A stretch of DNA of 64,000 bases from Gammaproteobacteria bacterium (lineage in GTDB: Bacteria > Pseudomonadota > Gammaproteobacteria > Pseudomonadales > Azotimanducaceae): assembly GCA_003248125.1 (NCBI GenBank), contig QJXZ01000026.1, positions 1 through 64,000 on the forward strand. Direction: 5' to 3'. A program made the position numbers and the translations under genes. The notes under the pieces are model-generated. The model had not been told where the DNA came from. It did no database searches and saw only the letters and a list, made by a program, of their open reading frames with translations. Positions 2,514-58,405 of this stretch are shown here, piece by piece (within the stretch, counting starts at the first letter, position 1; the number at the start of each line of letters is the position of its first letter).

Positions 2514-3716
2514 ATGGGGATGGACAGTCGCGCGCAGCTCGTCAGCATGGCCAAGCACAGCTTCGTGCATGCCAAAGCAGGCACCATCGACCAAGAGCCG
2601 GAGGTCCTCAAGGTGCCGGCCCGCCACTACTACGAGGAGAGTCGCTGGCGCGCGGAGATGGACCGCGTTTTCAAGCGCATGCCGCTGATGCTCGCGACCA
2701 GCGCAGAGCTCAAAAACCCAGGTGACTACAAGTCGCTGGAAGCGGTCGGCGTGCCGGTGCTCATAAGCCGCGGCCAGGACGGCGACGTGCGCGCGTTCGT
2801 CAACATGTGCCGACATCGAGGCGCCGTCATTCAGCCGGCCGGCCGCGGCAACACCAAGCGATTCATTTGCCCGTATCACGCCTGGAACTACGACGGCGAC
2901 GGCGCGTTGGTGGCGGTCTTCAAGGAAAAAGAATTCGGCCACGTCGACAAGTCGTGCAACGGCCTCATCCGGCTACCGGTCGCCGAACGCGCAGGTCTCA
3001 TTTGGGTGCATCTCGATCCGCACGCCGCGCTCGACATCGACACGTTTCTATGCGGCTACGACAAGGTGCTCGCGCATTTCGATTTTCAGGACTGGCATTT
3101 CTTCGCCGATCGCCGCATCGACGGGCCGAACTGGAAGATCGCCTATGACGGTTACATGGATCTGTACCATCTGCCGATTCTGCACAAGAACACCTTCGGG
3201 CCGAACATGCCAAGCCAAGCGCTGTACACCGCTTGGGGCCCGCATCAGCGCGTGAGTTCGCCCGATCCGCGCTTCGCCGCGCTCGAAGACATGCCCGAGT
3301 CCGAATGGACGGACGAGATGCTCATGCAAGGCGTGTGGACGATCTTCCCACACATTTCGATTGCCTCGTTCGATGGCGGCGGTCGCGGAGTGATGATCTC
3401 CCAGCTGTTTCCCGGCGATACGCCGCAATCGTCGTTTACCGTGCAGAACTACCTGATGGAGAAGCGACCCGACGATGCCACGGCGGAAGCGGCCAAGGCG
3501 CAATTCGCGCTACTCGAATACGTGGTGAAAGAAGAGGATTACGCCACGGGCCTCAGGCAACAGCGTGCGCTCATGACTGGCGCGATGTCGCACATCCTGT
3601 TCGGCCGCAACGAAGGCGGCGGTCATCGATTTCATGGCTGGGTCGACCGACTGATCCAAACAGACGACGACCAACTGGAGCGGCTGTTTGCGCAATCGGA
3701 GCGCTATGGCGTCTGA
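2514..3716 (+). CDS. Rieske-type aromatic-ring-hydroxylating oxygenase, alpha subunit
   Basis: This 400-residue protein would use a Rieske [2Fe-2S] cluster and a mononuclear iron to add oxygen to a ring or other hydrophobic substrate. The Rieske ligands are seen in NMCRHRGAV (C99, H101) and CPYHAW (C119, H122). The catalytic iron site is DGYMDLYHLPILHK, giving the Y-H-x4-H spacing of the family. No beta subunit, ferredoxin or reductase gene is adjacent, so electrons must come from elsewhere. It stands alone on the plus strand and its 3' end overlaps the convergent membrane-protein gene by 13 bp. ATGs at 2514 and 2520 both fit; no strong ribosome-binding site decides between them. Confidence 0.92.
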   Translation: MGMDSRAQLVSMAKHSFVHAKAGTIDQEPEVLKVPARHYYEESRWRAEMDRVFKRMPLMLATSAELKNPGDYKSLEAVGVPVLISRGQDGDVRAFVNMCRHRGAVIQPAGRGNTKRFICPYHAWNYDGDGALVAVFKEKEFGHVDKSCNGLIRLPVAERAGLIWVHLDPHAALDIDTFLCGYDKVLAHFDFQDWHFFADRRIDGPNWKIAYDGYMDLYHLPILHKNTFGPNMPSQALYTAWGPHQRVSSPDPRFAALEDMPESEWTDEMLMQGVWTIFPHISIASFDGGGRGVMISQLFPGDTPQSSFTVQNYLMEKRPDDATAEAAKAQFALLEYVVKEEDYATGLRQQRALMTGAMSHILFGRNEGGGHRFHGWVDRLIQTDDDQLERLFAQSERYGV

Positions 3717-4284: not shown

Positions 4285-5511
4285 ATGACACGCAACGAGA
4301 AAGGTGCGTTTGCGCGACGCAGCTTCCTGCAGGCGGGCGCGGCCGGTGCTGCAGCGGGCCTGCTACCGACCAGGTCGCGTGCAACGGCCGGCAAGCGTGC
4401 GGAAGTCAAACGGTACGTCGTGCTGGGTCGCACCGGCCTCGAGATCTCCGACATCACCTTCGGCTCGAGTCGACTGCGTACCGGCGAGGAGGATCTGGTC
4501 GCCTACGCCTACGACCGCGGCGTCACCTATTTCGACACTGCCGAAGGCTACACCGGTGGCCAATCCGAATCCGTCATCGGCAATGCCCTGCTCGGCAAAC
4601 GCGATCAAGTGGTCATCGCATCGAAAACCTCGACGCGGCCGTCGACGACGCGCGACGAGATGATGAGTGCGCTAGAAGGCAGCCTGCGCCGACTGCGCAC
4701 GGACTACATCGACGTGTTTTTCAACCACGCGGTGAACTCCGTCGCGCAGATGTCGAACCCGGAATGGCACGCGTTCGCCGAACAGGCCAAACGCCAGGGC
4801 AAGATCCGCTTCACCGGCATGTCCGGTCACGCCGGGCATCTGGTCGAATGCCTCGACTACGCGTTCGACGAGGACATGGTCGACGTGGTGTTGGTTGCCT
4901 ACAACTTCGGCCAAGACCCGAAGTTCTACGAGCGACTGACACAGTCGTTCGATTTCGTCGCCACCCAACCCGACCTCCCCCGCGTTCTCGAAAAGGGCAA
5001 GCGCAAAGGAGTTGGCGTGGTCACGATGAAGAATCTGATGGGCGCGCGGCTCAACGATATGCGCCCCTTCGAGACTGGTGGAGCGACCTTCGCTCAGGCC
5101 GCATTCCGCTGGGTGCTGTCCAATGCCAATGTCGATGCGGTGACCATCTCGATGACGAGTCATGCCCTGATCGACGAATACCTGGGCGCATCGGGCGCGA
5201 CTGCGCTGGTCCATGGCGACTTCGAGCTATTGAAGCAATACGCCCGGTTGAACGGCGCCAGCTACTGCCGGCACGCCTGCAACGATTGCGAGGGCGCCTG
5301 TCCATATGGCGTGCCCATTGCCGATGTGCTGCGCACTCGCATGTATGCCACGCACTACAAGGATCTCGAGTTTGCGCGTAGCGAGTATGCGCAGCTCGCA
5401 GTCAACGCTGCCGCATGCGCGTCCTGTAGCGGTCAACCGTGTCGCGAAGCCTGCACTCACGACCTGCGCATCGACCAGCTGTGCGGGCCGGCCCACTCGC
5501 TGTTGGCATGA
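4285..5511 (+). CDS. Tat-exported aldo/keto reductase with C-terminal Fe-S ferredoxin-like domain
   Basis: The 408-residue product starts at the ATG at 4285. Residues 11-18 are RRSFLQAG followed by an Ala-rich hydrophobic stretch, a twin-arginine signal, so it is probably folded with cofactors and exported or membrane anchored. The central domain is an aldo/keto reductase barrel with the full catalytic tetrad visible: D and Y in FDTAEGYTGG, K in VVIASKTS and H in YIDVFFNH. The tail has two cysteine groups, CRHACNDCEGACPYG and CASCSGQPCREAC, as in AKRs carrying [4Fe-4S] clusters. The stop overlaps the larE start (ATGA at 5508), so it is translationally coupled to the nickel-pincer biosynthesis genes. 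Confidence 0.88.
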   Translation: MTRNEKGAFARRSFLQAGAAGAAAGLLPTRSRATAGKRAEVKRYVVLGRTGLEISDITFGSSRLRTGEEDLVAYAYDRGVTYFDTAEGYTGGQSESVIGNALLGKRDQVVIASKTSTRPSTTRDEMMSALEGSLRRLRTDYIDVFFNHAVNSVAQMSNPEWHAFAEQAKRQGKIRFTGMSGHAGHLVECLDYAFDEDMVDVVLVAYNFGQDPKFYERLTQSFDFVATQPDLPRVLEKGKRKGVGVVTMKNLMGARLNDMRPFETGGATFAQAAFRWVLSNANVDAVTISMTSHALIDEYLGASGATALVHGDFELLKQYARLNGASYCRHACNDCEGACPYGVPIADVLRTRMYATHYKDLEFARSEYAQLAVNAAACASCSGQPCREACTHDLRIDQLCGPAHSLLA

Positions 5512-6377
5512 CCGTGACTTCGCCTACGCATACGCAGCTCATCGCTTCGGACGCGCAATCCTGGCCAGAAAAGCTGAACGCGCTGCGCGCGCATTTGCGC
5601 GACTGTCAGCGCGTGATCGTGGCCGTCTCCGGCGGCATCGACTCGACGTTTCTCTGGGCGATAGCAACGCAAGAACTTGGCCACCACGCGCTCGGCGTCA
5701 CCGGTGTTTCGCCGTCGCTCGCATCCTGGGAACGCGAAGCGCTCGCCGGTCTCGCCGACGAGGTGAACGGCCGCCACGAGTTGCTCGACACGCACGAACT
5801 CGACAACCCGAACTACGCCGCCAACCCATCGAATCGCTGCTTCTACTGCAAGGATACGTTGTGGTCTGCGGTCACCGCGCTGGCTGCCGCCGAAGGTGTC
5901 GTGCACGTCATGGACGGCTACAACGTCGACGACGTCGGCGACTATCGACCTGGTCAGGACGCTGGTCGCAAGCACGCCATCGCCAGTCCGCTCAAGGCAT
6001 TCGGATTCCGCAAAGTCGACATCCGCGCAGCCGCCGAGTCGATTGGACTTTCCATCTGGGCGAAGCCGGCCATGGCCTGCTTATCGTCACGATTCGCCTA
6101 CGGCGTACCCGTCGACGCCGATGGGCTGACCCGGGTAGATGGCGCTGAACGCTGGTTGCGCGAGCGCGGCTTCGCGCAATTACGCGTGCGCGTGCATGGC
6201 GATCGTCTAGCACGGCTAGAGTTACCGACCGCAGAGATCGACCGTTTTCTAGCGCTGCGCGAGGCGTTTGTCGCGCACATGAAAGCGCTGGGCTTCCTGT
6301 ATGTCAGTCTGGATCTAGAAGGCTTCCGCAGCGGCAGCATGAATGCCGTGCTGGAATTCGAGCCGGCTGCCCAGTGA
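5508..6377 (+). CDS. larE: ATP-dependent sacrificial sulfur transferase LarE
   Basis: LarE adds sulfur to the pyridinium dinucleotide that becomes the nickel-pincer nucleotide (NPN) cofactor, giving up its own cysteine sulfur in the known enzyme. The 289-residue product has a PP-loop, SGGIDS, at residues 41-46, the conserved NRCFYCKDTLW around 109-119, and KPAMACLSSRFAYG where Cys191 sits at the position of the sacrificial cysteine. Only this one cysteine is seen in that segment, so it looks like the single-cysteine type rather than the three-cysteine Fe-S type. The start overlaps the aldo/keto reductase stop; the gene is followed by larB with a stop/start overlap. Confidence 0.93.
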   Translation: MTVTSPTHTQLIASDAQSWPEKLNALRAHLRDCQRVIVAVSGGIDSTFLWAIATQELGHHALGVTGVSPSLASWEREALAGLADEVNGRHELLDTHELDNPNYAANPSNRCFYCKDTLWSAVTALAAAEGVVHVMDGYNVDDVGDYRPGQDAGRKHAIASPLKAFGFRKVDIRAAAESIGLSIWAKPAMACLSSRFAYGVPVDADGLTRVDGAERWLRERGFAQLRVRVHGDRLARLELPTAEIDRFLALREAFVAHMKALGFLYVSLDLEGFRSGSMNAVLEFEPAAQ

Positions 6378-7048
6378 ACGAGCCGTTCGCCCGCCTGGAT
6401 CACGATCGCGTAGCGCGCCAGGGATTTCCCGAAGTGGTGTTTGCGTCCGGCAAGACGCCGGCGCAGCTCGCGGCCATCGTCGCTGAGTTCACGGCTAGAT
6501 CGAATCGTGCGCTGGCGACGCGCGCGCATGCCGAGCACGCCGCCGCCGTGCAGGCGAGCGTACCCACCGCCAGTTACGACGCCTTGTCTGGCCTCATCCG
6601 CGTCGGCCGCCTCGAGCCACCGTCCGGCATGTCGCGCCACCGTGTCGCCGTTTGTTGCGCAGGCACGAGTGATTCGCCCGTCGCCGAGGAGTGCGCGCAA
6701 ACACTCGAATGGGCGGGCATCGACATTCGACGCTTCTACGATATCGGTGTTGCCAACCTCGACCGCATGCTGGCGGTGGAAGACGAGCTGCGGGCGGCGT
6801 CGGTGTGCATCGTCATCGCCGGCATGGAGGGCGCGCTGCCGAGCGTACTGGGCGGTCGTGTCGCGTGTCCCGTCATCGCCGTGCCGACCAGTGTCGGCTA
6901 CGGCGCCAATTTCGGGGGCATCTCGGCGCTGCTCGGTATGCTGACCAGCTGCGTACCCGGTGTCACGGTGGTGAATATCGACAATGGCTTCGGCGCCGCA
7001 GCCGCAGCGAATCGCATGCTTCGCGCGATGGTGGCGGCTGCATCGTGA
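6374..7048 (+). CDS. larB: Nickel-pincer cofactor biosynthesis protein LarB
   Basis: LarB carboxylates and hydrolyses nicotinic acid adenine dinucleotide to start NPN synthesis. The 224-residue product opens with LDHDRVARQGFPEVVFASGK, the N-terminal LarB signature, and its C-terminal half is the PurE-like domain with VAVCCAGTSDSPVAEE, IVIAGMEGALPSVLGG, VIAVPTSVGYGANFGG and VNIDNGFGAA. The GTG start at 6374 overlaps the larE stop, and its own stop overlaps the larC start, so the three lar genes are tightly coupled. The order larE-larB-larC differs from the classic larABCDE operon and no larA is in the window. Confidence 0.93.
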   Translation: MNEPFARLDHDRVARQGFPEVVFASGKTPAQLAAIVAEFTARSNRALATRAHAEHAAAVQASVPTASYDALSGLIRVGRLEPPSGMSRHRVAVCCAGTSDSPVAEECAQTLEWAGIDIRRFYDIGVANLDRMLAVEDELRAASVCIVIAGMEGALPSVLGGRVACPVIAVPTSVGYGANFGGISALLGMLTSCVPGVTVVNIDNGFGAAAAANRMLRAMVAAAS

Positions 7049-8226
7049 GCCGCGTCGCACATCTAGATCTCTTCTGCGGTGCGAGCGGCGACATGTTGCT
7101 TGGCGCACTCGTCGATTGCGGCGTACCGATCGAGATCATTCGCGATGCGATCACGGCACTCGGGCTCGATCGGTTGCAGGTCACGGTAGAGCGCCTGGAC
7201 AAGCTCGGCATCGCCGCGACCAAAGTGCACGTTGTGGCACCGCACGAGCACGTGCATCGGCATCTACCGGACATCGTCGAAATCATCACGCGGTCGTCGC
7301 TCAGCGATGAGGTCAAGCACTCGGCATGCGGCGCGTTTCGCGCCTTGGCGGTCGCGGAAGCCAAAGTCCACGACATCCCCGTCGACCACGTGCACTTTCA
7401 CGAAGTCGGCGCCCTAGACGCCATCGCAGACGTCGTCGGCGTGGTGGCAGGCTTCACCCACCTCGGCCTCGCGCAGCTCAGTTGCCGCGGCATACCGGTC
7501 AGCCATGGCACCGTGCGCTGCGCGCACGGCGTGCTACCGGTTCCTGCGCCGGCCGTGGTGCACCTGATGGAGGGACTGCCGACGTATCCACTCGACATCG
7601 ACGGCGAGACGGTGACACCGACCGCTGCAGCGTTGCTCAAGGTGCTCGTCACACGCTGGCAAGCGCCAGGTGCGATGACCATCGAACGTAACGGCTTTGG
7701 TGCAGGCAGCAAGGATTTTCCGCGTGCCAACGTGCTTCGGCTAATCGTGGGACGGAGCGCGCCCGATGCAAGCATCGAAGCCAACCAGTCGCTTTCCTTG
7801 CTCGCGACCAATCTCGACGACATGAATCCGGAGTGGTTGCCGCCGCTCATGGAACGCCTACTCGCTGCCGGGGCACGCGACGTTTGGCTGACACCCATCC
7901 TGATGAAAAAGGGCCGGCCCGCACACACACTGAACGTGCTCTGCGATCCAACGGCGAGCCGGGCGCTACGCGAGCTGATCTATCGACACACCTCCACGCT
8001 CGGTATCCGCGAGACGATGGTCGATCGCCATAGCTTGCCGCGCGAATCCCGCAACGTCGCAACCCCGTGGGGCGAGATCACGATCAAGATCGCGACGCTA
8101 CCCGACGGCAGCGTGCGGGCCGCACCCGAGCACGACGATTGCCGGCGTGCGAGCGACGCGCACGGCGTATCGCTGGCCACAGTACACGAAGCCGCCATTG
8201 CTGCCTGGCGCGCAAGCGAGCATTGA
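7045..8226 (+). CDS. larC: Nickel insertion protein LarC
   Basis: LarC is the CTP-dependent cyclometallase that inserts nickel into the pincer nucleotide. The 393-residue product begins at the GTG at 7045, giving SRVAHLDLFCGASGDMLLGA, the standard LarC N-terminus. A His-rich segment HEHVHRHLP and the motif DHVHFHEVGALDAIADVVG are typical metal-handling parts, and LLATNLDDMNPEWLPPLME opens the C-terminal half. In some bacteria larC is split and joined by programmed frameshifting; here it is one continuous frame. The ORF is open further upstream (from 6691) but that part overlaps larB. It is the last gene of the operon, followed by an 83-bp gap. Confidence 0.93.
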   Translation: MSRVAHLDLFCGASGDMLLGALVDCGVPIEIIRDAITALGLDRLQVTVERLDKLGIAATKVHVVAPHEHVHRHLPDIVEIITRSSLSDEVKHSACGAFRALAVAEAKVHDIPVDHVHFHEVGALDAIADVVGVVAGFTHLGLAQLSCRGIPVSHGTVRCAHGVLPVPAPAVVHLMEGLPTYPLDIDGETVTPTAAALLKVLVTRWQAPGAMTIERNGFGAGSKDFPRANVLRLIVGRSAPDASIEANQSLSLLATNLDDMNPEWLPPLMERLLAAGARDVWLTPILMKKGRPAHTLNVLCDPTASRALRELIYRHTSTLGIRETMVDRHSLPRESRNVATPWGEITIKIATLPDGSVRAAPEHDDCRRASDAHGVSLATVHEAAIAAWRASEH

Positions 8227-8309: not shown

Positions 8310-9524
8310 ATGGCAACCGCAATCCCGGCGCCCGACGAGCACAATCGCTGGCGAATGGATAGTCCAGGCCACGATGGCTGGTCACGAACGGCCCGACCCG
8401 ACGATCCACACAAATACTTCATGGTCTCCACTGATGGCCACGTGCAAGAGCCATCCGATCTATGGCGCACGCGCATCGAGGAGAAATATCGCGATCGGCT
8501 ACCCGGTGTGGTCGTCGACTCGAGCGGTAAGAAGTTCCAGAAGACAGAAGGATTCCGGCCACTGCGGCTGCGCGACATTCCATTTGCGGGCGAGGATCTG
8601 CTGCGCAACAAGTCGGGCACGACCCCGGAAGAACGGCTGGCCGATCACGCCGCCGACGGCATCGATTGCGAAATCCTGTTCCCCAACAAGGGCCTCACGA
8701 TCTGGGCCACGCCCGACGCCGAGTTCAGTCAGGCCATGTGCCGCGTCTACAACACATGGGCCTGGGAGGTGTTCGGTGCCTACAACGACCGCTTGTCGCC
8801 CATGGCATGCGTCGCGGCCGCCGACATCCCCGGCGCAATTGCGGAGATCGAACGCTGCGCCAAGCTCGGCTTCCGCGGCCTGTCGCTACCTTGCAAGCCG
8901 GTTTGGGGTGCACCCGATCACGAGGCACTGAACTACAACCTGCCGCAGTTCGATCCCTTGTGGGCCTGTATTCAAGACGCCGACTTACCCATCACGTTCC
9001 ACGTTTCGACGGGCCGCGACCCGCGCACCTCGCGGGGCAACGGCGGCGCCGTCATCAACTACGCCGTGCACTCGTTGGCACCGACCATGGAACCGATTGC
9101 CAATCTCTGTGCATCCGGCGTCATCGAGCGCTTCCCCAAGATCCGCTTCGGTAGCGTCGAGGCCGGCATCGGCTGGGTGGCTTGGGCGCTCGGCGCGCTG
9201 GACGAGGCCTACAAGAAGCACCACATGTGGGTGCGTCCCAAGCTCTCGCGCCTGCCGAGCGAGTATTTCAAGAGCAACGGCTTCGCGACCTTCCAGGAGG
9301 ACAAGGCGGGTCTCGATCTCGCCCGCGAGCACGATCTGATCGACAACTTCATGTGGGCCAACGACTACCCCCATCACGAAGGCACTTGGCCGCACTCGGC
9401 CGCTGCCATCGAGCGAACGATGAACCAACTCACGGACGACGAGCGCGCCAAGATTCTCGGTCTCAACGCCGCGCGCGTCTTCAAGTTCGACATTCCCGCG
9501 CGCTATAGGACCGCGCACGCATGA
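8310..9524 (+). CDS. ACMSD-like amidohydrolase (amidohydrolase 2 family)
   Basis: This 404-residue protein belongs to the amidohydrolase-2 family, metal-dependent decarboxylases and hydrolases related to aminocarboxymuconate semialdehyde decarboxylase. It shows VSTDGHVQEPSDLW (the D-x-H metal motif with the EP that follows) at about residues 40-53, ITFHVSTG near 230 (metal-binding His) and FMWANDYPHHEGTWP near 345 (catalytic Asp). Members of this subgroup often sit in steroid and aromatic degradation clusters. The ATG at 8310 follows AGAGGG with good spacing. Its stop overlaps the next start as ATGA, so it is the first gene of a three-gene operon with an Ltp2-like thiolase and a DUF35 protein. 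Confidence 0.87.
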   Translation: MATAIPAPDEHNRWRMDSPGHDGWSRTARPDDPHKYFMVSTDGHVQEPSDLWRTRIEEKYRDRLPGVVVDSSGKKFQKTEGFRPLRLRDIPFAGEDLLRNKSGTTPEERLADHAADGIDCEILFPNKGLTIWATPDAEFSQAMCRVYNTWAWEVFGAYNDRLSPMACVAAADIPGAIAEIERCAKLGFRGLSLPCKPVWGAPDHEALNYNLPQFDPLWACIQDADLPITFHVSTGRDPRTSRGNGGAVINYAVHSLAPTMEPIANLCASGVIERFPKIRFGSVEAGIGWVAWALGALDEAYKKHHMWVRPKLSRLPSEYFKSNGFATFQEDKAGLDLAREHDLIDNFMWANDYPHHEGTWPHSAAAIERTMNQLTDDERAKILGLNAARVFKFDIPARYRTAHA

Positions 9525-10699
9525 CGCGTACCTTGCGCGGCAAAGCCGCGGTGGCAGGCGTGGGTCAAACGACCTATTACAAGCACGGCCAGTCACCGGA
9601 TGCCGAGAGCAAGCTGGCACTCGAAGCCATCGTCAACGCGTGTGTCGATGCTGGTGTCTCACCAAAGGAGATCGATGGCTTCGCCTCGTTCTCGAACGAC
9701 CGTAACGACGGTCCACGGCTGGCGGCCGCACTCGATTGCAAAGAGCTGCGCTACTCGAACATGTTCTGGGGCGGTGGTGGCGGCGGCACGGCCGGTGCAA
9801 TAGAGAACGCCGCGGCTGCAATCGCCTGCGGCATTGCCGATTGCGTGGTGGTGTACCGTTCGCTCGCGCAAGGTCAGTTCGGTCGTTTCGGGCGCGGTGC
9901 GCAAGTTCGACATGTGTCGGGTGACGCCGCACACACAGTGCCCTACGGGCTCATGTCGGCCGCGCAGATGTTCGCCATGAAAGCAATGCGTTTCATGCAC
10001 GACTACGGCATACGACAAGAAGCTTTGCGTGCCATCGCGCTGGCGTCCTACACCCATGCGCAGAGCAACCCCCAAGCCATCATGCATGGGCGACCGCTAA
10101 CCGAGGAACAATACGACGCGTCACGTTGGATCGTCGAGCCGTTCCGGCTCTTCGATTGCTGCCAAGAAAACGACGGCGCCGCGGCCATGGTGCTCGTGCC
10201 CGCCGAACGCGCAAAGGACTTCGCGCATCGTCCCTGCTATGTGCTCGGTACGGCGAGCGGCGGGCCGAACCGATCGGCGGCACCGGTGCACAATGCACCG
10301 CTGTATGGCAGCTCACACTTCACGACCGTCGCGAAGCATCTCTATCGAATGGCAGAACTCACGCCGAATGATGTCGACGTGCTGCAGAGCTACGAAAACT
10401 TCACGGGCGGCGTGCTCATGGCCATGGTCGAGCATGGCTTCTGCGCGGCCGAGGAAGTGAACGACTTCTTCGTGCTCGACAACCTGCTTGCACCCGACGG
10501 TCGTCTGCCCCTGAACACCAGCGGCGGTAATCTCGCCGAGTGCTACATGCATGGCCTTGGCCTCACCATCGAAGCCGTGCGGCAGGTCCGCGGCACCTCG
10601 TGCAACCAAATCGACGGGGCCGAAGTGTCCATGATGATCGCGGGCCCCATGGTCACGCCGGTGAGTTCGGTGATCTTCGGTGCGGAGTCGACGCTATGA
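9521..10699 (+). CDS. Thiolase-fold lipid-transfer protein, possible Ltp2-like retro-aldolase
   Basis: The 392-residue protein has the SCP-x/lipid-transfer thiolase fold. Where true thiolases have the acylated cysteine, it reads FWGGGGGGTAGAIENAAAA, with no cysteine, so it probably is not a thiolase. It keeps the tyrosines in QSYENFTGGV and AECYMHGLG, at the positions used by the steroid side-chain aldolase Ltp2. QGQFGRFG is also typical of this subgroup. Ltp2 works as a complex with a DUF35 protein, and a DUF35 gene overlaps directly downstream by ATGA. I therefore infer C-C cleavage of a beta-hydroxyacyl-CoA, but the substrate is unknown and a non-steroid ring acid is possible. Confidence 0.85.
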   Translation: MTRTLRGKAAVAGVGQTTYYKHGQSPDAESKLALEAIVNACVDAGVSPKEIDGFASFSNDRNDGPRLAAALDCKELRYSNMFWGGGGGGTAGAIENAAAAIACGIADCVVVYRSLAQGQFGRFGRGAQVRHVSGDAAHTVPYGLMSAAQMFAMKAMRFMHDYGIRQEALRAIALASYTHAQSNPQAIMHGRPLTEEQYDASRWIVEPFRLFDCCQENDGAAAMVLVPAERAKDFAHRPCYVLGTASGGPNRSAAPVHNAPLYGSSHFTTVAKHLYRMAELTPNDVDVLQSYENFTGGVLMAMVEHGFCAAEEVNDFFVLDNLLAPDGRLPLNTSGGNLAECYMHGLGLTIEAVRQVRGTSCNQIDGAEVSMMIAGPMVTPVSSVIFGAESTL

Positions 10700-11139
10700 G
10701 TAGTCACTACTTGGCGCCCGGGTTGCCGATGCCCGCCCCTGCTCGCGACCGCTTGGATGCCCCGTTCTGGGAAGGGCTCCGCGACGAGCGGTTGCTGCTG
10801 CAACGATGCCGAGCGTGCACGCGCTTTCAATGGGGTCCGGAGTGGATCTGTCATCGCTGCGCGAGCTTCGATGTCGAATTTGCGGCGGTCGAGCCGCGCG
10901 GGCGCATCTACAGTTTCGAGCGCGTCTGGCACCCGGTGCACCCCGCACTCAAGGACCAGGGACCCTACCTGGTGGTGTTGGTGGAGTTGCCGCACGCCGA
11001 CAACGTGCGGCTGGTAGGGAATCTGCTCGGCGATGCCACACAGCCGGTGGAGATCGGTGCGGCGGTCACTGGCGTCTTCGAGCACCATCGGGATGCCGAG
11101 CCGCCGTTCACCCTGCTGCAATGGCAGATTTCTGACTAG
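10696..11139 (+). CDS. DUF35 Zn-ribbon/OB-fold protein (ChsH2-type aldolase partner)
   Basis: The 147-residue product starts at the ATG at 10696 inside an ATGA overlap. It has the two parts of the DUF35 family: a rubredoxin-like zinc ribbon with CRAC (at about 34-37) and CHRC (49-52), then an OB fold including GRIYSFERVWHPVHPAL and LVGNLLGD. DUF35 proteins bind acyl-CoA and act as obligate partners of thiolase-fold enzymes, as in Ltp2-ChsH2 of steroid side-chain degradation. The gene order here supports that partnership with the preceding gene. No MaoC hydratase domain is fused, unlike ChsH2 itself, so this is the stand-alone DUF35 form. Confidence 0.87.
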   Translation: MSSHYLAPGLPMPAPARDRLDAPFWEGLRDERLLLQRCRACTRFQWGPEWICHRCASFDVEFAAVEPRGRIYSFERVWHPVHPALKDQGPYLVVLVELPHADNVRLVGNLLGDATQPVEIGAAVTGVFEHHRDAEPPFTLLQWQISD

Positions 11140-32786: not shown

Positions 32787-33451
32787 GCAACCAGACTGTG
32801 CGCGCGCTACCCGTAGGTCGCGACCCGACCAACGACATTTGGCAGGCAATGTTCACGCAGCGCGCGATTCGCTACTGGCAACCGGAGAAGGTGCCTCGCG
32901 AACTCCTCGAACTTGTCGTCGAAGCCGCCGCCAAAGCACCAAGCGGATCGAATTTGCAGCCATGGATGTTCGTAGTCGTCGACGACGATGCGCAGCGCAA
33001 CGCGATTGGTGCCGCGCTCCGACGGGTTTACGAAGCCGCGGAACCGCTCAAGAACCTCATCGCGGCAGGCGAGAAGTCCGACGACAAGACGCAGCGATTG
33101 ATGCTGAAGGGGGCGCGCGCCTTCTTCTCGCAACTCGAAAAGGCACCCGCCTTGATCGTGCCGTGTCTGTACCACCTGGCATCGCCGGTGACCGATACGT
33201 CGACGTTGCTGGCCGGCAGCTCGATCTACCTCGCGGTTCAAAATCTACTGCTCGCGGCCCGCGCACTGGGACTCGGTACGGTGATGACGACGGCGCACAA
33301 CCTGATTGCACCGGCACTGCGCGACATCCTCAATCTACCTGGCGACGCTACTCCGGTCGCGCTCATCCCGATCGGTTTTCCCGATGCAAACTTCGGACCC
33401 ACCGTACGCAAAGACGTCACTGAGATCCTGCGTTGGAATCGGTGGCAGTAG
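32783..33451 (+). CDS. Nitroreductase family protein
   Basis: This 222-residue FMN-type protein has AMFTQRAIRYWQPEKVPREL, then AAAKAPSGSNLQPWMFVVV, then AVQNLLLAARALGLGTVM and a final GDATPVALIPIGFPDAN. The order and spacing match the nitroreductase fold, whose members reduce nitro, quinone, ene or iodotyrosine substrates with NAD(P)H. The start overlaps the epoxide-hydrolase-like stop (ATGA). Because neighbours act on oxygenated aromatics, a quinone or enone substrate is a reasonable guess, no more. Confidence 0.85.
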   Translation: MSNQTVRALPVGRDPTNDIWQAMFTQRAIRYWQPEKVPRELLELVVEAAAKAPSGSNLQPWMFVVVDDDAQRNAIGAALRRVYEAAEPLKNLIAAGEKSDDKTQRLMLKGARAFFSQLEKAPALIVPCLYHLASPVTDTSTLLAGSSIYLAVQNLLLAARALGLGTVMTTAHNLIAPALRDILNLPGDATPVALIPIGFPDANFGPTVRKDVTEILRWNRWQ

Positions 33452-33512
33452 AATCTCGCGCGCAATCCGCTACAGTCCGCTGCAAGCATTTCGTTTTCGC
33501 ACGGAGGAACCA

Positions 33513-34355
33513 GTGACCGAGACGACGGCATACACGCCGCCCAAAGTGTGGCAGTGGAACAAAGAAAACGGCGGCCGCTTCGCCAACATCAATCGACCAA
33601 CCGCCGGTGCAACGCACGAGAAAGAACTGCCCGTAGGCGACCATCCACTGCAGCTTTACTCGCTCGGTACACCGAACGGCGTGAAGGTGACCATCTTGCT
33701 CGAGGAGCTTCTTGCGGTAGGTGTGGGCGACGCCGAGTACGACGCCTGGCTCGTCAACATCGGCGACGGCTCACAATTCGGGAGTGGCTTCGTCGCGATC
33801 AATCCAAACTCCAAGATTCCTGCCCTCGTCGATCGCAGCGTCAACCCGCCAGCCCGCGTCTTCGAGTCGGGCGCCATCCTGCTGTATCTCGCCGAAAAGT
33901 TCGGCAAGTTCATTCCCTCCGATCCGGCTGCCCGAGCCGAGTGCTACTCGTGGCTGTTCTGGCAGATGGGGAGTGCGCCGTTTCTGGGCGGTGGCTTCGG
34001 GCACTTCTACGCCTATGCACCCGAGAAGTTCGAATACCCCATCGACCGCTACGCCATGGAAACCAAGCGGCTGCTCGACGTGCTCAATCGCAATCTCGCC
34101 GAGCGCGAGTACATGATTGGCAACGAGTACACCATCGCCGACATGGCGAACTATCCCTGGTGGGGCGCGTTAGTGCTGCACAACATTTACGACGCGTCAG
34201 AATTTCTCGACGTCGGTTCGTACGAGCACGTCGTGCGGTGGGCGAAGGTCATCGAGGCACGCCCAGCCGTGCAGCGCGGCCGTCGAGTCAACCGTCCGTG
34301 GGGGTCCGAAGAAACCCGCGTCGTCGAGCGTCACAGCGCCGCAGACTTCCGCTAG
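33513..34355 (+). CDS. Glutathione S-transferase family protein, YghU-like
   Basis: The 280-residue protein matches the YghU/YfcG (Nu-class) thiol-transferases: RFANINRPTAGATHEKELPV near residue 20, QLYSLGTPNGVKVTILLEEL near 48, NPNSKIPALVDRS near 92, then an all-helical C-terminal domain with FLGGGFGHFYAYAPEKFEYP and IADMANYPWWGALV. Nu-class enzymes have disulfide-bond reductase or glutathionyl activity. The start is taken as the GTG at 33513 because GGAGG is just upstream; the open frame continues further but no other start fits. It is probably a detoxification or glutathione-adduct step linked with the epoxide hydrolase and nitroreductase genes. Confidence 0.9.
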   Translation: MTETTAYTPPKVWQWNKENGGRFANINRPTAGATHEKELPVGDHPLQLYSLGTPNGVKVTILLEELLAVGVGDAEYDAWLVNIGDGSQFGSGFVAINPNSKIPALVDRSVNPPARVFESGAILLYLAEKFGKFIPSDPAARAECYSWLFWQMGSAPFLGGGFGHFYAYAPEKFEYPIDRYAMETKRLLDVLNRNLAEREYMIGNEYTIADMANYPWWGALVLHNIYDASEFLDVGSYEHVVRWAKVIEARPAVQRGRRVNRPWGSEETRVVERHSAADFR

Positions 34356-39508: not shown

Positions 39509-39604
39509 AGCTCGCATCTCCTCCAATTGGTCGCGCGAAGCCTGGTCCCCTTTCCAGCCACATGCAAGTTCGCCTATCGTCGCCTAGAGACTCGAGGGGA
39601 CGGC

Positions 39605-40762
39605 ATGCAAAATCCACCCAATCCCGTACAACGGGTGACGGCACTACATCCGCTCATCCGTGCGCATGCAGATGCTGCCGAGGCCGAGCGTCGTTTGCCG
39701 GTGCCGGTGGCGCAAGCATTCGCGGCCGAGCGCCTGTATCGAATCGGCGCGCCGGAGTCATGTGGCGGCGAGTCAGCGAATCCGGCAACGCAGATTCGAA
39801 CCATCGAAGCCGCATCGATCGCGGATGGCAGCGCGGGCTGGAATCTCATGATCGGCATCGAGACCTTCGGTCTCATCGCACCCGCGTTTGCGCGCTGCGG
39901 CGAGCTCATCGCCGATCCCAACGTCGTGCTCTGCAGTTCGACCGCCGCCGTCGGGCGTGCTGACGCCGTGCCGGGTGGCTACCGCGTCAATGGCCGCTGG
40001 GCGTTCGTGAGCGGCTGCCACAACAGCGCTGTGTTCGGCGCCACGGTACGCCTGTACCGCAACGGCGAGCCGATCGCCGGCACCGCCAACGTCTACGCGA
40101 TGCTGGAGCGTCCCCATTGGCAGATTCTGGACACTTGGCACGTGGCAGGATTGTGCGGCTCGGGGTCGCACGATGTCGTGGTTGAAGACGCGTTCGTGAC
40201 CGAAGCGCGCATCGTGGCGCCTATCGGCGGCTTCACGAACGATTCCCCTTTGCTGCGATTCCCCCTTGGAGCACGGCTTGCCTACAACAAAGTCGCAGTC
40301 GCGCTCGGCATCGCGCGTCATGCTCTCGATGCGTTCGTCGACTTGGCGGAAAACAAGGTGCCTCGGTTCACGTCGCAGACCCTGCGCATGCGGCCCAGCG
40401 CGCAGCGCGCCATTGCGGCCGCGGAGGTGCGGGTTCGCGGATCACGCGCCCTGTTGTTCGAGTCGGTCGAGGAGATCTGGCAACAGGTCGTGGACCAAGC
40501 GCGTGTACCGCGCAAGACGCTCGCGCTGTTCCAGGCGGCTTGCTCGGACGCCGTCTCTGGCTGCGCCGAAGCAGTCGATGGGGTCGCCGAGGCCGCCGGC
40601 ACCACTGCGAATGCAAAGGGCCATCCGTTGGAACGCGTCGCACGCGACGTGCGCGTGGTGCGCCAACACGCAACCGTTGCGATCCACCACATGGAGGATG
40701 CGGGTCGTGTGTTGCTCGGCCTGCCGGCCGAGGGATTGATGCTGCGCAGCCTGTCGTCTTAG
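39605..40762 (+). CDS. Acyl-CoA-dehydrogenase-fold flavoprotein (monooxygenase-type)
   Basis: The 385-residue product has an ACAD-like fold with an N-terminal helical domain (ADAAEAERRLPVPVAQAFAA), GWNLMIGIETFGLIA, GYRVNGRWAFVSGCHNSAVF near 145 (mid beta domain), VAGLCGSGSHDVVVEDAFV and a C-terminal helical domain (AIHHMEDAGRVLLGLPAEGL). The pattern is that of flavin-dependent monooxygenases of the HsaA/HpaB-type group rather than classic dehydrogenases, because the usual catalytic base motif is absent. GAGGGGACGG precedes the ATG. It may hydroxylate a phenolic intermediate of ring degradation, but needs a reductase partner, not seen here. Confidence 0.82.
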   Translation: MQNPPNPVQRVTALHPLIRAHADAAEAERRLPVPVAQAFAAERLYRIGAPESCGGESANPATQIRTIEAASIADGSAGWNLMIGIETFGLIAPAFARCGELIADPNVVLCSSTAAVGRADAVPGGYRVNGRWAFVSGCHNSAVFGATVRLYRNGEPIAGTANVYAMLERPHWQILDTWHVAGLCGSGSHDVVVEDAFVTEARIVAPIGGFTNDSPLLRFPLGARLAYNKVAVALGIARHALDAFVDLAENKVPRFTSQTLRMRPSAQRAIAAAEVRVRGSRALLFESVEEIWQQVVDQARVPRKTLALFQAACSDAVSGCAEAVDGVAEAAGTTANAKGHPLERVARDVRVVRQHATVAIHHMEDAGRVLLGLPAEGLMLRSLSS

Positions 40763-46982: not shown

Positions 46983-48575
46983 TCAGGCGTCTGCAAGCAC
47001 GAACTCGGCACCCTTCTCGGCGATCATCACGGTCGGTGCATTGGTGTTGCCGGACGTGATGGTGGGCATGACCGACGCATCGATCACCCACAATGCGTCC
47101 ATGCCGTGCACCGCGAGCCGATCGCTGACGACGGCCTCGGGGTCAGCGCCCATCTTGCAGGTGCCGACCGGATGAAAGATGGTGGCACCGAGCTCGCGTG
47201 CAGCTTGCAGCAGCTCGGCGTCGCTGGTCACGGTCGCCCCCGGCTTCCACTCTTGCGGCTCGAACCGCTGCAATGCCGTGGCCGCCATGATGCGTCGCGT
47301 AAACCGCAGTCCTGCAACTGCCACGGCCTCGTCCTCCGACGTGGCCAAGTAGTTGGTCTGGATAATCGGCGCATCATCTGGATCGGCACTGCGCGCCGCC
47401 ACGAATCCACGGCTGGTGGGACGCAGATTGCACACACTTGGCGTGATCGCATCGAACGCGTGCAACGGTTCGCCGAACCGGTCGAGCGAAAGCGGCTGCA
47501 CGTGCCACTCGATGTTGGCTGTAGGTTGTGCGGCATCCGACTTCGCGAACGCACCAAGCTGGGACGGTGGCATCGTCAGAGGACCGGTGCGGAAGAAGAG
47601 GTATTCGAGCCCCATCGCGGCCTTACCTAACAGCGAGTTCGCGCGCCGGTTCAGCGTGCGGGTGTTGCGCACCTTGTAGATCGTGCGAATCTGCAAATGG
47701 TCCTGCAAGTTGCGACCGACGCCCTCGAGCTCGTGGCAAACCGGAACACCGATGCGCCCCAGCACGTCGCGCGGACCGATGCCGGACAACTGCAGCAAGT
47801 GCGGTGAACCGATCGCTCCGGCCGCCAACACCACACCCCGTCGCGCGGTGACCCTCTGCGAGCCGTCGCGTTTTGTACGAATGTCGACACCCGTTGCGCG
47901 TTTGCCATCGAGCCGCACGCCCGTGACCAAACAATCGGTCATCACGGTGAGATTGGTACGGTGTGCGACCGGGCGTATGAAGGCTTTACTCGCGCTCCAT
48001 CGGACGCCGCGACGCTGATTCATCTGAAAGTATGCATTGCCGAAATTGTCGCCGCGATTGAACTCCTCGATCTTCGGAATGCCACACTCGGCGGCGGCCT
48101 CGCGCCAAGCATCGAGGATCTCCCAGTTGACGCGCCGCTCCTCCACGCGTAGCTCGCCGCCCACGCCATGGAACTCGCTCGCACCGTGCTGGTAGTCCTC
48201 GCTCTTCTTGAAGACAGGCAGCACGTCGTCCCAGCCCCAGCCGCGATTGCCCAGCGCCGCCCACTGATCGTAGTCGCTGCGCTGGCCACGCATGTAGATC
48301 ATCGCGTTGATCGACGAGCACCCACCGAGCACTTTGCCGCGCGCGTACTGAATCACGCGCCCCGCCAGCCCGGGCACGGGTTCCGTTCGAAAGCACCAAT
48401 CGGTGCGAGGGTTGTCGATGGTGTAGAGATAGCCGACTGGTATGTCGATCCAGAAATAGTCGTCCTTGCCACCAGCTTCCAGCAGTAGTACCGAGTTCGC
48501 AGGATCGGCGCTCAACCGGTTCGCAAGCACACACCCTGCCGTGCCCGCGCCAATCACCACGAAATCGAAATTCAC
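46983..48575 (-). CDS. GMC-family FAD-dependent oxidoreductase
   Basis: This 530-residue protein has the GMC pattern: FDFVVIGAGTAGCVLANRLS (FAD site), RGKVLGGCSSINAMIYMRG, then GAIGSPHLLQLSGIG near 270 and GATIFHPVGTCKMG near the end with the catalytic His region. Choline-dehydrogenase-like GMC enzymes oxidise alcohols in the cytoplasm or periplasm, here without any signal peptide. Its start overlaps the MFS gene stop by 4 bp, so the two are co-translated and could form an uptake-oxidation pair. The alcohol substrate is unknown. Confidence 0.9.
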   Translation of the reverse strand: MNFDFVVIGAGTAGCVLANRLSADPANSVLLLEAGGKDDYFWIDIPVGYLYTIDNPRTDWCFRTEPVPGLAGRVIQYARGKVLGGCSSINAMIYMRGQRSDYDQWAALGNRGWGWDDVLPVFKKSEDYQHGASEFHGVGGELRVEERRVNWEILDAWREAAAECGIPKIEEFNRGDNFGNAYFQMNQRRGVRWSASKAFIRPVAHRTNLTVMTDCLVTGVRLDGKRATGVDIRTKRDGSQRVTARRGVVLAAGAIGSPHLLQLSGIGPRDVLGRIGVPVCHELEGVGRNLQDHLQIRTIYKVRNTRTLNRRANSLLGKAAMGLEYLFFRTGPLTMPPSQLGAFAKSDAAQPTANIEWHVQPLSLDRFGEPLHAFDAITPSVCNLRPTSRGFVAARSADPDDAPIIQTNYLATSEDEAVAVAGLRFTRRIMAATALQRFEPQEWKPGATVTSDAELLQAARELGATIFHPVGTCKMGADPEAVVSDRLAVHGMDALWVIDASVMPTITSGNTNAPTVMIAEKGAEFVLADA

Positions 48576-49906
48576 GGCATGCCCGGCCCGGCGCCGTGAC
48601 CGGGGAGCATCGCATCTTCGCCGTGACCTTTGTGGATGTGCCGCAACTCCGGGTAGGCGGCACCCAGCCCGAGCATACTGATCGCGAGCAGCGCGCCGGC
48701 AAGCAACAACGCCACGTGTATACCGATCGATTCTGCAGCGCCGCTGATCGGAATGATGCCGAGTGGCATGAGACCGTGCGCCATCATCATGATGCTCATC
48801 ACGCGGCCACGGATCTCGGGCTGAATTGCAAGCTGCACGATGCTCATATTCATCGAGCCGAACACCGCGCCGAAGAATCCGGTGAGCGCGCCCATGGCCA
48901 TCGCGAGCCAGAGGGTCTTGGTCAGCGCAAACGCGGCCAGGCTCACGGCCCAGCAGTAGGCAGTGGCGAACATCATGCGTCCCTTGCTGCCGATATCGCC
49001 GAGCCGCGCGAGCGCAAGCGAACCGGCAAGGGCGCCTACGCCCATCGCCGTCATCAAGAAGCCGAGGTCCTCCGGACCGCCAGCGATGACGTCCTTATTG
49101 AACGCAGGCAACAAAAATGATGCCGAAAAGCCGAACGTCATCGGCAAGAAACCCATGATGAGCAGGCCGAGAATCAGCCGCTCGGTGCGCATGTAGCGAA
49201 ACCCTTCGGCAACGTCTTCGAGCGGCGTACTCGGTGGTCGCTCCTGCGGCTTACCGACGTAATGCATCAAGGAGGTAGCCACGACCGAGACCAAGTACAG
49301 CCCCGCGATCACGAAGAACACGGTACCAACGCCGCGCATGCCGCTGGCGCCGCCCGCCGCGAACAGAGCGATCAGACCGCCGGCGAGGGCAGGGCCGAGG
49401 ATACGCGACAAGTTGAACGTTGCGCTCTGCAGCGCCATCGCGTTTACCAGCGATTCGCGATCGACCACCTCGGGAATCACCGCAGTTCTAGCGGGCATGC
49501 TGAACGACAGCACGGTGCCGTTGAACAGACCGAAATAAATGAAGTGCGCGAACGTGACCTGCTCGCTAAATATGATCACCGCGAGCACCGTCGTGGCGAC
49601 GGCGTTCAGAATCTGGGACGCGATCATGATCGGTTTCTTGTGTAGTCGATCGGCAATCACGCCACCGGCCAGCGAGAACAGGAAGGACGGCAGCATGAAC
49701 GACAACATCACCCACGTGAGCGCCATCGGCGAATTCGTCATGTCGTAGATGAGCCAGCCACGCGCGACCATCTGCATCTGCATCGCGAAGGTAGCGGCCA
49801 GGCTCGAAAACCACAGATATCGGAAATCGCGGACGCGCAGCGACTCGAACATACCTTTTTTGTAAAGGCTACCCGACGCACCGCGGCTCCGCGCCATCTC
49901 CGCCAT
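48572..49906 (-). CDS. MFS-type transporter (MFS_3/enterobactin exporter-like)
   Basis: The 444-residue membrane protein has about 12 hydrophobic segments and the conserved loop AGGVIADRLHKKPIMIA (between helices 2 and 3), typical of the MFS_3 group with drug or metabolite exporters. A cytoplasmic loop (KPQERPPSTPLEDVAEGFRY) precedes the second half, and helices 7-12 include MTAMGVGALAGSLALARLG. The tail HIHKGHGEDAMLPGHGAG is His-rich and unusual. It overlaps the GMC oxidoreductase downstream by 4 bp. Export or import of the GMC substrate or product is possible. Confidence 0.87.
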   Translation of the reverse strand: MAEMARSRGASGSLYKKGMFESLRVRDFRYLWFSSLAATFAMQMQMVARGWLIYDMTNSPMALTWVMLSFMLPSFLFSLAGGVIADRLHKKPIMIASQILNAVATTVLAVIIFSEQVTFAHFIYFGLFNGTVLSFSMPARTAVIPEVVDRESLVNAMALQSATFNLSRILGPALAGGLIALFAAGGASGMRGVGTVFFVIAGLYLVSVVATSLMHYVGKPQERPPSTPLEDVAEGFRYMRTERLILGLLIMGFLPMTFGFSASFLLPAFNKDVIAGGPEDLGFLMTAMGVGALAGSLALARLGDIGSKGRMMFATAYCWAVSLAAFALTKTLWLAMAMGALTGFFGAVFGSMNMSIVQLAIQPEIRGRVMSIMMMAHGLMPLGIIPISGAAESIGIHVALLLAGALLAISMLGLGAAYPELRHIHKGHGEDAMLPGHGAGPGMP

Positions 49907-56474: not shown

Positions 56475-57170
56475 CTACAAAAGTTCGTCGAGCGACGCGA
56501 TCTCGATGTCGGGGTGGGGTTCATCCGGTGACCGCGCACGACCGGTGCGGTTGAGCCATATCCCCCGGATTCGCGCTGCCTGCGCGCCGGCCACGTCGGC
56601 GCCGAGGCTGTCGCCGACATGCATTGCATGCTCCCGCGTGCCGCCGAGCATCTCGAACGCGGTGTCGAACACTGCCGGATGAGGCTTGGCGTACCCGAGT
56701 TCCCCCGACACCACGATGGCATCGAACCACTTCTCGAGCCCGAGCACTTCGATCTTCTCGCGCTGCGTGTCCGACGAGCCGTTGGTCACCAGTGCCAGTC
56801 GTGCACCCGATGCTGTCAGTGCATCGAGCGCACGTTCGACATCGTCGAACAATCGATACGTCGCGCGGGAGAACTCGAGGTGTAGGGCGAGCGCCCGCTC
56901 GACAATGGCGGCATCGTGGCATTGGCAATCGGCTAAGGTACGCCGCCAAGCCTCGCGGCTCACGCCGCGGCCGTCGATGGCGCCCAGCTGCCAAGCGGAT
57001 TCGATCGCCGGGAAGTATCGTTGCCAGATACGTGCATTGGCAACGAGCAGCTGATCGGCATCGAGCGAAGCGCGCTCCTGTGCCAACGCCCGGCACGTAT
57101 TGGCAATGGCTTGCGGGAAATGGCTGCCATCCAGCAGCGTGCCGTCCAGATCCAAGCAGACCACCGCCAT
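56475..57170 (-). CDS. HAD-superfamily phosphatase
   Basis: This 231-residue protein has the HAD motifs: I in VCLDLDGTLLD (nucleophile and acid Asp), II in LALVTNGSSDTQ, III in ELGYAKPHPAVFD (Lys) and IV in HVGDSLGADVAGA. It is like phosphoglycolate phosphatase or 2-haloacid-type HAD proteins with an alpha-helical cap (residues 20-90). The start overlaps the upstream hydrolase stop by one base (TAATG). The natural substrate is not evident. Confidence 0.87.
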   Translation of the reverse strand: MAVVCLDLDGTLLDGSHFPQAIANTCRALAQERASLDADQLLVANARIWQRYFPAIESAWQLGAIDGRGVSREAWRRTLADCQCHDAAIVERALALHLEFSRATYRLFDDVERALDALTASGARLALVTNGSSDTQREKIEVLGLEKWFDAIVVSGELGYAKPHPAVFDTAFEMLGGTREHAMHVGDSLGADVAGAQAARIRGIWLNRTGRARSPDEPHPDIEIASLDELL

Positions 57171-58405
57171 TACGCAATCCGCGCGAGCACCGGCTTCAAA
57201 TACGACAGGAATGCAGCCGGATGTTCCGACATGGGGAAGTGACCCACCCCTTTCATCTCCGCGAACGTCGAGCCCCGAATGGCCTGGTGCGCCTCGCGGC
57301 CGAGGTCGACGCGTCCACTCCAGTCGTACTCGCCCGAGAGGATGTGCACGCCAACTCTGCGCGTATCGATTTGGGTCGCAACATCGCGCAGATCGAAATC
57401 CGCAATGTAGTAGTACAGATCACCTAGGAATGCGGGTGGCCAGCCGGTCGAATAGACAAAGCCCGTTTCCTTGCGATACGGCAGCGGCGACGTGGGAGAC
57501 ACCAAACCTTCCATCGCACGGGCCTTGTATTCGTTGCTGACCTGCGGATGCCACAGCTCGCTGAGCCGCGTCAGGTCGCCTTCCACCTTGAGCGCACCTT
57601 CCACGGAGATCACCGCGCGAAACGTGTCGGCATGCCGATAGGCGAGATCGAGTGCGAGCAGACCACCGACCGAGCAGCCCATGAACACGGGCCGGTCGAG
57701 CTCCAGCATCTCGGCGAGCTCCACCGGCACCGAGCGCAAGAACTCACCCTGCAACCGGTAAGGCTCCGACCACCAGGCTTTGGTCGGTGGCGGCATCGAC
57801 TTGCCGTGATACGGCAGGTCGTAGGCAATGAGTCGGAAGCGACGGGTGATCGACTCGTCTTCGAACAGGTGCCGCCACTGACTGCCGTGGCACCCGGCAG
57901 TGTGCTGCATGAGGAGCGGAATGCCTTCGCCGGCTTCCTCGAAGTAGATGCGGTGATCGTGGCCACCGAGTGTGAGATGCACGTACCGGCCGATGGGTGA
58001 ATCGAACTTGCGCGCCGGTTCTCGCACCGGCCTCCCATCGCTTGCCGGCCGCAGCAATTCGATGGCACGCATCACGGCCGCGTAGTACTGCGCATACGCC
58101 ACGGGATCAGCCGATAAAGACAATCCGACACCGGTCGTGAGCGCGGCCATGAGGTCATTGTGATACGGCGGCGGTGTTGCCGCGAGCACACGCGCCCACA
58201 CCTCGCTCGGCCCCGACAACTCGATCGCGTTCTCGTGCGCACCTGAGCCGGCTTCCGGCACGCCGTCTCGCACAATGACGCCCAGCGCTCGATCGCCGAT
58301 ACGAAGCGTGAGGCTGCCGTTCCAATGGCGGGCCGCCAACTTGAATTCGCCGTCGCTTGCGCACGACTTCGCCCAAGATTCCGCAGTTGGCAACGACAAC
58401 ACCAT
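57170..58405 (-). CDS. SCP2-like domain fused to an alpha/beta hydrolase
   Basis: The 411-residue product has two parts. Residues 1-125 (FKLAARHWNGSLTLRIGDRA, then IELSGPSEVWARVLAATPPP) look like a sterol-carrier/SCP2-like lipid-binding fold. The rest is an alpha/beta hydrolase: LLMQHTAGCHGSQWRHLF (oxyanion), AYDLPYHGKSMPP, the nucleophile elbow VFMGCSVGGLLAL near residue 248 and a final His in KGVGHFPMSEHPAAF. The fusion would deliver a hydrophobic ester or ring product to the hydrolase, an inference. It overlaps the HAD gene by one base and starts at ATG 58405. Confidence 0.83.
   Translation of the reverse strand: MVLSLPTAESWAKSCASDGEFKLAARHWNGSLTLRIGDRALGVIVRDGVPEAGSGAHENAIELSGPSEVWARVLAATPPPYHNDLMAALTTGVGLSLSADPVAYAQYYAAVMRAIELLRPASDGRPVREPARKFDSPIGRYVHLTLGGHDHRIYFEEAGEGIPLLMQHTAGCHGSQWRHLFEDESITRRFRLIAYDLPYHGKSMPPPTKAWWSEPYRLQGEFLRSVPVELAEMLELDRPVFMGCSVGGLLALDLAYRHADTFRAVISVEGALKVEGDLTRLSELWHPQVSNEYKARAMEGLVSPTSPLPYRKETGFVYSTGWPPAFLGDLYYYIADFDLRDVATQIDTRRVGVHILSGEYDWSGRVDLGREAHQAIRGSTFAEMKGVGHFPMSEHPAAFLSYLKPVLARIA

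Follow-up and report, generated by a model that had tools for sequence, protein, structure and literature searches.

Three overlapping genes of a gammaproteobacterium of the Azotimanducaceae, at positions 8310-11139 of a 64,000-nucleotide stretch (hereafter the window: positions 1 to 64,000 of contig QJXZ01000026.1, assembly GCA_003248125.1, which has 4.24 Mb in 383 contigs), encode a predicted dinuclear-metal oxygenase, a predicted thiolase-fold aldolase and a DUF35 protein. On balance, the trio probably works as a two-step unit, in which O2-dependent beta-hydroxylation of an acyl-CoA is followed by retro-aldol cleavage. In the first step the PF04909 protein would act as a dinuclear-metal (Fe/Fe or Mn/Fe) monooxygenase, using O2 and two electrons to place a hydroxyl on the beta carbon. 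In the second the thiolase-fold protein would take over, with its DUF35 partner holding and shaping it: Y291 would deprotonate the beta-hydroxyl, cleavage of the alpha-beta bond would yield a ketone or aldehyde and an acyl-CoA enolate, and Y342 would protonate the enolate. The oxygenase would stand in for the usual acyl-CoA dehydrogenase and hydratase, direct hydroxylation being needed where the substrate is one whose alpha carbon carries no hydrogen. We infer the beta position of the hydroxylation, the order of the steps and the formation of a complex. The features are as follows.

8310-9524, + strand: predicted PtmU3-like amidohydrolase-related dinuclear oxygenase (ARO), 404 aa; from sequence, fold and ligand columns
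9521-9524, + strand: ATGA shared by the oxygenase stop and the aldolase start, read from the DNA sequence
9521-10699, + strand: predicted Ltp2-like thiolase-fold aldolase of the YENF subclade, 392 aa; from the 6ok1 match, the paired Tyr and the tree
10696-10699, + strand: ATGA shared by the aldolase stop and the DUF35 start, read from the DNA sequence
10696-11139, + strand: DUF35 partner (zinc ribbon CxxC...CxxC plus OB fold; PF12172, PF01796), 147 aa counted from the ATG at 10696

The reading frames, and the overlap of the DUF35 gene with the aldolase gene, are those described in an earlier note on this DNA; both junctions of the set are 4-base start/stop overlaps.

The PF04909 protein as a probable dinuclear oxygenase

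Among proteins of solved structure the PF04909 protein (Pfam E=6e-39) is closest in sequence to PtmU3 (E=4.7e-59), followed by DitZ (5e-30), a decarboxylase (1e-14) and ACMSD (~1e-6). PtmU3 also comes first when the predicted model is ranked by fold (Z 34.6, rmsd 3.2, 348 residues, ~33% identity in the structural match), before an uncharacterised amidohydrolase (Z 31.3), AibH2, DitZ and SfbO-type oxygenases (~28-30), and decarboxylases including ACMSD (~26-29), which it leads by more than 5 Z units. ACMSD carries an N-terminal HxH metal motif; the N-terminal motif of the window protein is D42-x-H44, D42 being invariant in 37/37 aligned rows, and the D352-x-x-H355-x-E357 set of PtmU3 is present.

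The metal ligands of AibH2 are Asp25, His27, His211, Glu265, Asp337 and His340, to which PtmU3 adds Glu313 (PMC7782822), and LynB7 shows the same ligand pattern as AibH2 (PMC10127204). The equivalents in the window protein are D42, H44, H231, E284, D352 and H355, with E357 in the place of PtmU3 E313. All seven columns are kept in 36 or 37 of the 37 rows, a single row having a gap or another residue at some of them. An N-terminal extension of the window oxygenase is conserved as well (N12, W14, R15, W24). Amidohydrolase-related dinuclear oxygenases have been named as a group, members of which are able to use Fe/Fe or Mn/Fe (PMC10811679), and PtmU3 is a beta-hydroxylase that acts at C-5 of CoA-bound diterpenoids (PMC7782822, PMC10127204). 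Sequence and model together suggest that the PF04909 protein belongs to the PtmU3-like group, its metals and its use of O2 being predicted.

The label "ACMSD-like", given to this protein in the earlier note, has to be abandoned: an ACMSD-type decarboxylase was rejected, since ligand motif, E-value and fold ranking all favour PtmU3. The note had also found an amidohydrolase unusual for the pathway, and thought that it may act on substrate or product. The gene is there, overlapping that of the aldolase, but a decarboxylase of the ACMSD type it is not; because it falls in the PtmU3-like dinuclear oxygenase group, this odd neighbour is likely the supplier of the aldolase's hydroxyl group in the window.

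The predicted aldolase and its DUF35 partner

By sequence, the solved structure closest to the thiolase-fold protein (Thiolase_C_1, PF22691, E=7e-25) is 6ok1_A, the Ltp2 of Thermomonospora curvata (E=2.5e-79), and the one closest to the DUF35 protein (OB_ChsH2_C, E=3e-9; zf-ChsH2, E=9e-7) is 6ok1_B, the partner of the same Ltp2 (E=3e-18). Ltp2 was also ranked first by Foldseek on the predicted aldolase model (E=5.8e-37, 38% identity in the structural match). The model aligns with 6ok1 Ltp2 over 360 residues (Z 46.1, rmsd 2.3), and with Sal, second in rank, over 358 (Z 40.7, rmsd 2.9). The confidence of the AlphaFold models is middling (mean pLDDT 76.5 and 76.7) and low at some active-site loops, so that active-site geometry is not claimed.

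Catalysis by Ltp2 involves Tyr294 of the YDHF motif as base, the His of this motif in the oxyanion hole, and Tyr344 as acid (PMC12329534). The equivalent residues of the window protein are Y291, N293 and Y342; the two tyrosines align with those of YDHF and GEAYIHG in 6ok1_A, and on this alignment Y291 is the predicted base and Y342 the predicted acid. Conservation was followed in 81 rows: the window protein plus the 80 best matches (66-78% identity) among 523 relatives found. Y291, E292, N293, F294, E340, Y342 and H344 do not vary in any of them, nor does a run of glycines at 84-89, which replaces the nucleophilic-Cys region of thiolases. Variation is seen in members further away: one copy from Delftia has YDSF, and the copy of Burkholderia plantarii has LQG after the second Tyr. 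The second Tyr is absent, in the alignment, from all seven other thiolase-fold relatives in the genome of the window. The translation of the DUF35 gene contains the four-Cys zinc-ribbon motif CxxC...CxxC, and a DUF35 ortholog adjoins the aldolase gene in 78 of the 80 relatives, both exceptions lying at contig ends. Sequence and model thus support an Ltp2-like retro-aldolase pair, its activity being predicted; what the earlier note had said of the missing thiolase Cys, of the tyrosines at Ltp2 positions and of the DUF35 partner holds.

Phylogeny was analyzed with 39 proteins, eight alignment rows having been omitted, seven that nearly duplicate members of the window clade and one with a long branch. 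The 28 paired-Tyr proteins group together (100/98), separate from thiolases and from Sal, and this grouping, together with the aligned tyrosines, answers the check that the note had proposed in favour of an aldolase. Within the paired-Tyr group, steroid-type Ltp2 proteins (T. curvata, a Vibrio, a Rhodococcus plasmid copy) make up one clade (100/100), and the YENF group of the window another (100/100), apart from it. Since the two clades are distinct, the window protein, judged by its sequence, counts as an Ltp2-like aldolase and not as a steroid Ltp2.

Linkage of the oxygenase to the aldolase-DUF35 pair

Neighbourhoods were compared at the same 80 loci, all from one genome collection. An oxygenase ortholog (at least 58% identity) adjoins the aldolase-DUF35 pair in 36 of them, upstream in 24 (L010, where the frame is broken, being counted from tblastn hits) and downstream in 12; distant paralogs (L043, L051, L063 and a second copy in L049; 24-32%) were not counted. 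The association is real, and the occurrence of two gene orders favours function over common descent of one arrangement. Thirty-six genomes were searched among the 44 loci without an adjacent oxygenase: an ortholog resides elsewhere in 24 of them (E≤1.5e-184), and two have a weaker or partial match. Among 185 genomes of the class, the window's own included, the oxygenase is found at ortholog level in two, with one further weak match, and the aldolase in two.

The first gene calls were poor in GC-rich loci and were for this reason replaced by those of a codon-scored caller, on which the counts of hydratases and other neighbours rest. The attempt to read the substrate from shared neighbours was given up: beyond DUF35, oxygenase and hydratase, none recurs in more than 13 of the 80 loci. 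One locus (L035) is labelled Klebsiella pneumoniae, and carries an aldolase-DUF35 set otherwise seen here in environmental bacteria; it is probably a mislabelled metagenome bin.

Exchange of partners

At loci that lack an adjacent oxygenase, the neighbour met most often is an enoyl-CoA hydratase of the MFE-2 type with two domains (PF22622 plus PF01575). In 22 of the 80 loci it is no more than 2 kb from the pair, mostly in divergent orientation, and in not one of these does an oxygenase ortholog adjoin the pair. In six loci of the Neoroseomonas/Roseomonas type the pair shares a cluster with the MFE-2 hydratase and with a CoA ligase; in five of these clusters genes for acyl-CoA dehydrogenase were detected too, and no oxygenase was found in the six genomes at E≤1e-60. 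L072, which has the oxygenase and no MFE-2 hydratase, is the tree neighbour (fork 100/99) of L056 (Neoroseomonas), from which it differs in partner. At the thresholds used, the MFE-2 hydratase was not found in 11 of the 37 oxygenase-linked genomes, namely L072 and ten others belonging to gamma- and alphaproteobacteria, actinobacteria and Rokubacteria. The genome of the window has a hydratase ortholog (73%) on contig 28 (C28:5937-6767). This gene and an apparent amidase lie side by side (L132, 4467-6767, contig 28 of G000), and an amidase of this kind also flanks the aldolase pair in relatives.

A third partner was detected in all six betaproteobacterial loci examined (replicons of two Delftia, two Variovorax, Burkholderia plantarii and Cupriavidus metallidurans). 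A Rieske oxygenase lies ~1.3 to 4.1 kb from the pair in all six, accompanied by a VanB-type reductase in five and by a class III CoA transferase in six. A different arrangement was seen in Sphingobium herbicidovorans pSHV1, where a distant oxygenase homolog (41%) is followed by a CoA ligase, a thiolase-fold protein and DUF35, the thiolase-fold protein falling outside the paired-Tyr clade. A flavoprotein of the nitroreductase family is repeatedly encoded close to aldolase-DUF35 or oxygenase genes in betaproteobacterial and sphingomonad replicons (L146, L147, L150, L151, L152, L154).

Since the neighbours of this one kind of aldolase pair include three unrelated types of enzymes able to create a beta-hydroxyl, the supply of the pair's substrate is the simplest reason common to all. 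More tentatively, the YENF aldolase-DUF35 pair may be a general cleavage core with interchangeable, unrelated beta-hydroxyl makers (dinuclear amidohydrolase-fold oxygenase; Rieske oxygenase plus reductase; acyl-CoA dehydrogenase plus MFE-2 hydratase), and serve, when the partner is the oxygenase, as an O2-dependent bypass of beta-oxidation for acyl-CoAs with a quaternary alpha carbon, which cannot be dehydrogenated; we regard this extension as possible, and give it less credence than the two-step unit itself.

Several observations weigh against an oxygenase-aldolase unit. The 80 loci are related sequences and not independent trials, and the six Rieske-linked pairs form one clade in the 39-protein tree, so that this linkage possibly reflects one event. 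Neither oxygenase nor hydratase is nearby in 16 of 51 well-flanked loci; in 10 of the 36 further genomes with the pair, no oxygenase was detected at E≤1e-60; and in the class one genome (G013) has the pair without the oxygenase, another (G091) the oxygenase, adjoining a Rieske oxygenase gene, without a close pair. Thirteen of the 37 oxygenase-linked genomes, the window's included, also hold a close hydratase ortholog (69-79%). The exchange of partners is for this reason not strict, and the two enzymes could act at different steps; a rule of oxygenase or hydratase, never both, was rejected, only adjacency to the pair being exclusive. In the aldolase itself, the oxyanion His of the Ltp2 YDHF motif is changed to Asn (YENF) in 81/81 rows. 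Lastly, a small Rieske ferredoxin within a few genes has served to search for members of the oxygenase group, as a heuristic and not as a definition (PMC10811679), and by motif scan no such gene adjoins the window oxygenase, or that of most relatives. The same scan found a Rieske frame of at least 237 residues somewhere in the surrounding DNA in 4 of the 36 oxygenase-linked loci, and the nearest Rieske protein in the window is a 400-aa oxygenase (2514-3716). The idea of a dedicated ferredoxin partner was dropped, as none adjoins the gene in the window.

Alternative explanations

Oxygenase and aldolase may serve different steps of the same pathway, the pair cleaving a hydratase-made beta-hydroxyacyl-CoA, and the oxygenase placing its hydroxyl at a different site, on the substrate or on the product of cleavage. 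The hydratase ortholog in the genome of the window (73%) fits this scheme, as does the divergent hydratase that adjoins the pair in many gammaproteobacterial relatives, and hydratases act together with the Ltp2 and Sal aldolases already described (PMC12329534). Yet in the 11 oxygenase-linked genomes a search that covered hydratases of the MFE-2 type gave none at the chosen thresholds, and L072 and L056, neighbouring rows of the tree, differ in exactly this partner. We consider the scheme rather unlikely. A very unlikely alternative takes the PF04909 protein for a mononuclear non-oxidative enzyme, a decarboxylase of the ACMSD type or a hydrolase, working on the substrate or product of the aldolase. 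The Pfam family is indeed shared, and ACMSD and other decarboxylases have the same fold, but the D-x-H motif, E284 and the set running from D352 to E357 are those of PtmU3, which is ahead of the decarboxylases by tens of orders of magnitude in E-value as well as in Z.

Removal of propionyl-CoA from steroid-22-oyl-CoA, the role in steroid side-chain degradation suggested by the earlier note, is less credible still. Fold and Tyr pair are shared with T. curvata Ltp2, and the window encodes elsewhere (39527-40762, + strand) an HsaA-like two-component flavin monooxygenase, its score of 152 bits being far below the family cut-off of 450. This role was dropped as the leading view because the protein sits in a clade of its own, has YENF and not YDHF, and lacks a companion ChsH2: a single query, ChsH2 from a Vibrio operon taken as ChsH1-ChsH2-Ltp2-like by gene order, matched the 383-contig assembly in 6 places, solely via its DUF35 part (residues 189-322), and its MaoC half had no match. 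Least credible of all is an acyltransferase or Claisen enzyme of the PhlC or SCP2-thiolase type. The fold is common to PhlC, SCP2-thiolase and benzoylsuccinyl-CoA thiolase, but the Cys is absent at the nucleophile position, both aldolase tyrosines are present, and the thiolases sampled (PhlC itself is not in the tree) fall outside the paired-Tyr clade. The two-step unit accommodates these data best.

Other features of the window

Oxygenases, P450s and CoA enzymes are abundant across the whole window. Just upstream of the trio, positions 5439-8226 encode LarB (PF00731) and LarC (PF01969) domains, and the segment is an apparent LarE-LarB-LarC set for the nickel-pincer cofactor, LarE being assigned from sequence reading. 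Relatives of further window genes are found near the aldolase pair in other genomes. They include a glutathione-transferase-like protein (33306-34355; a 67% relative lies directly downstream of the aldolase-DUF35 pair in G013, locus L168), an alpha/beta hydrolase (57170-58405, - strand; 63% relatives in L027 and L036) and a P450 (15399-16730, + strand; 51% relatives in L040 and L047). A major-facilitator transporter (48572-49906, - strand) has relatives (47-78%) near stand-alone oxygenase genes (L135, L136, L139 and L140, for example), hinting that it is a member of the oxygenase's pathway.

Comparison with known systems

Each part of the trio comes from a known family. The literature searched contained no description of the parts combined as an oxygenase-aldolase unit. 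No paper joining an amidohydrolase, a lipid-transfer protein and DUF35 came up there, most subscription papers lying outside the search, and on the oxygenase group and on retro-aldol cleavage with DUF35 the papers listed concern only steroid or stand-alone work. Few amidohydrolase-fold dinuclear oxygenases have an assigned substrate (PMC10811679), and linking the CoA-type branch of these enzymes to a retro-aldolase gives both a testable joint reaction. It would also account for a set of genes that is widespread (523 relatives of the aldolase in one genome collection) and is annotated as acetyl-CoA acetyltransferase, OB-fold protein and amidohydrolase. If true, the trio would provide a route, unusual for bacteria, to open branched acids beyond the reach of beta-oxidation, without the normal dehydrogenation step.

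The pair resembles Ltp2-ChsH2 of T. curvata (6ok1) in the Cys-less thiolase fold, the two catalytic tyrosines and a DUF35 with four zinc cysteines. It differs in sequence (38% identity), in clade and in having YENF for YDHF; unlike the DUF35 of ChsH2, that of the window is a stand-alone protein and not the C-terminal half of a hydratase, and it is an oxygenase that resides in the operon instead. The Sal-Shy bile-acid aldolase of Comamonas testosteroni (9myr) is likewise a thiolase-fold retro-aldolase on a DUF35 protein, and follows the same chemical logic (PMC12329534). It falls outside the paired-Tyr clade, and features Tyr/Cys (YDCY) and a C3H1 zinc site (PMC12329534).

AibH1H2 and SfbO have ligand set and fold group in common with the window oxygenase, but their substrates or test compounds are free small molecules and a Rieske ferredoxin gene lies nearby (PMC7782822, PMC10811679). 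PtmU3 of the platensimycin/platencin pathway (6omp) shares the PF04909 TIM barrel and the seven ligands, predicted here for the window protein, and is described as acting on CoA thioesters, the substrate class proposed for the window oxygenase. Unlike the latter, it resides in a biosynthetic gene cluster; identity is ~33%, and the conserved N-terminal extension is a feature of the window protein. The C-5 hydroxyl set by PtmU3 in platensimycin biosynthesis reportedly prepares ring-A cleavage beside a quaternary alpha carbon. If the proposed bypass of beta-oxidation is real, it would be the catabolic mirror of this PtmU3 step.

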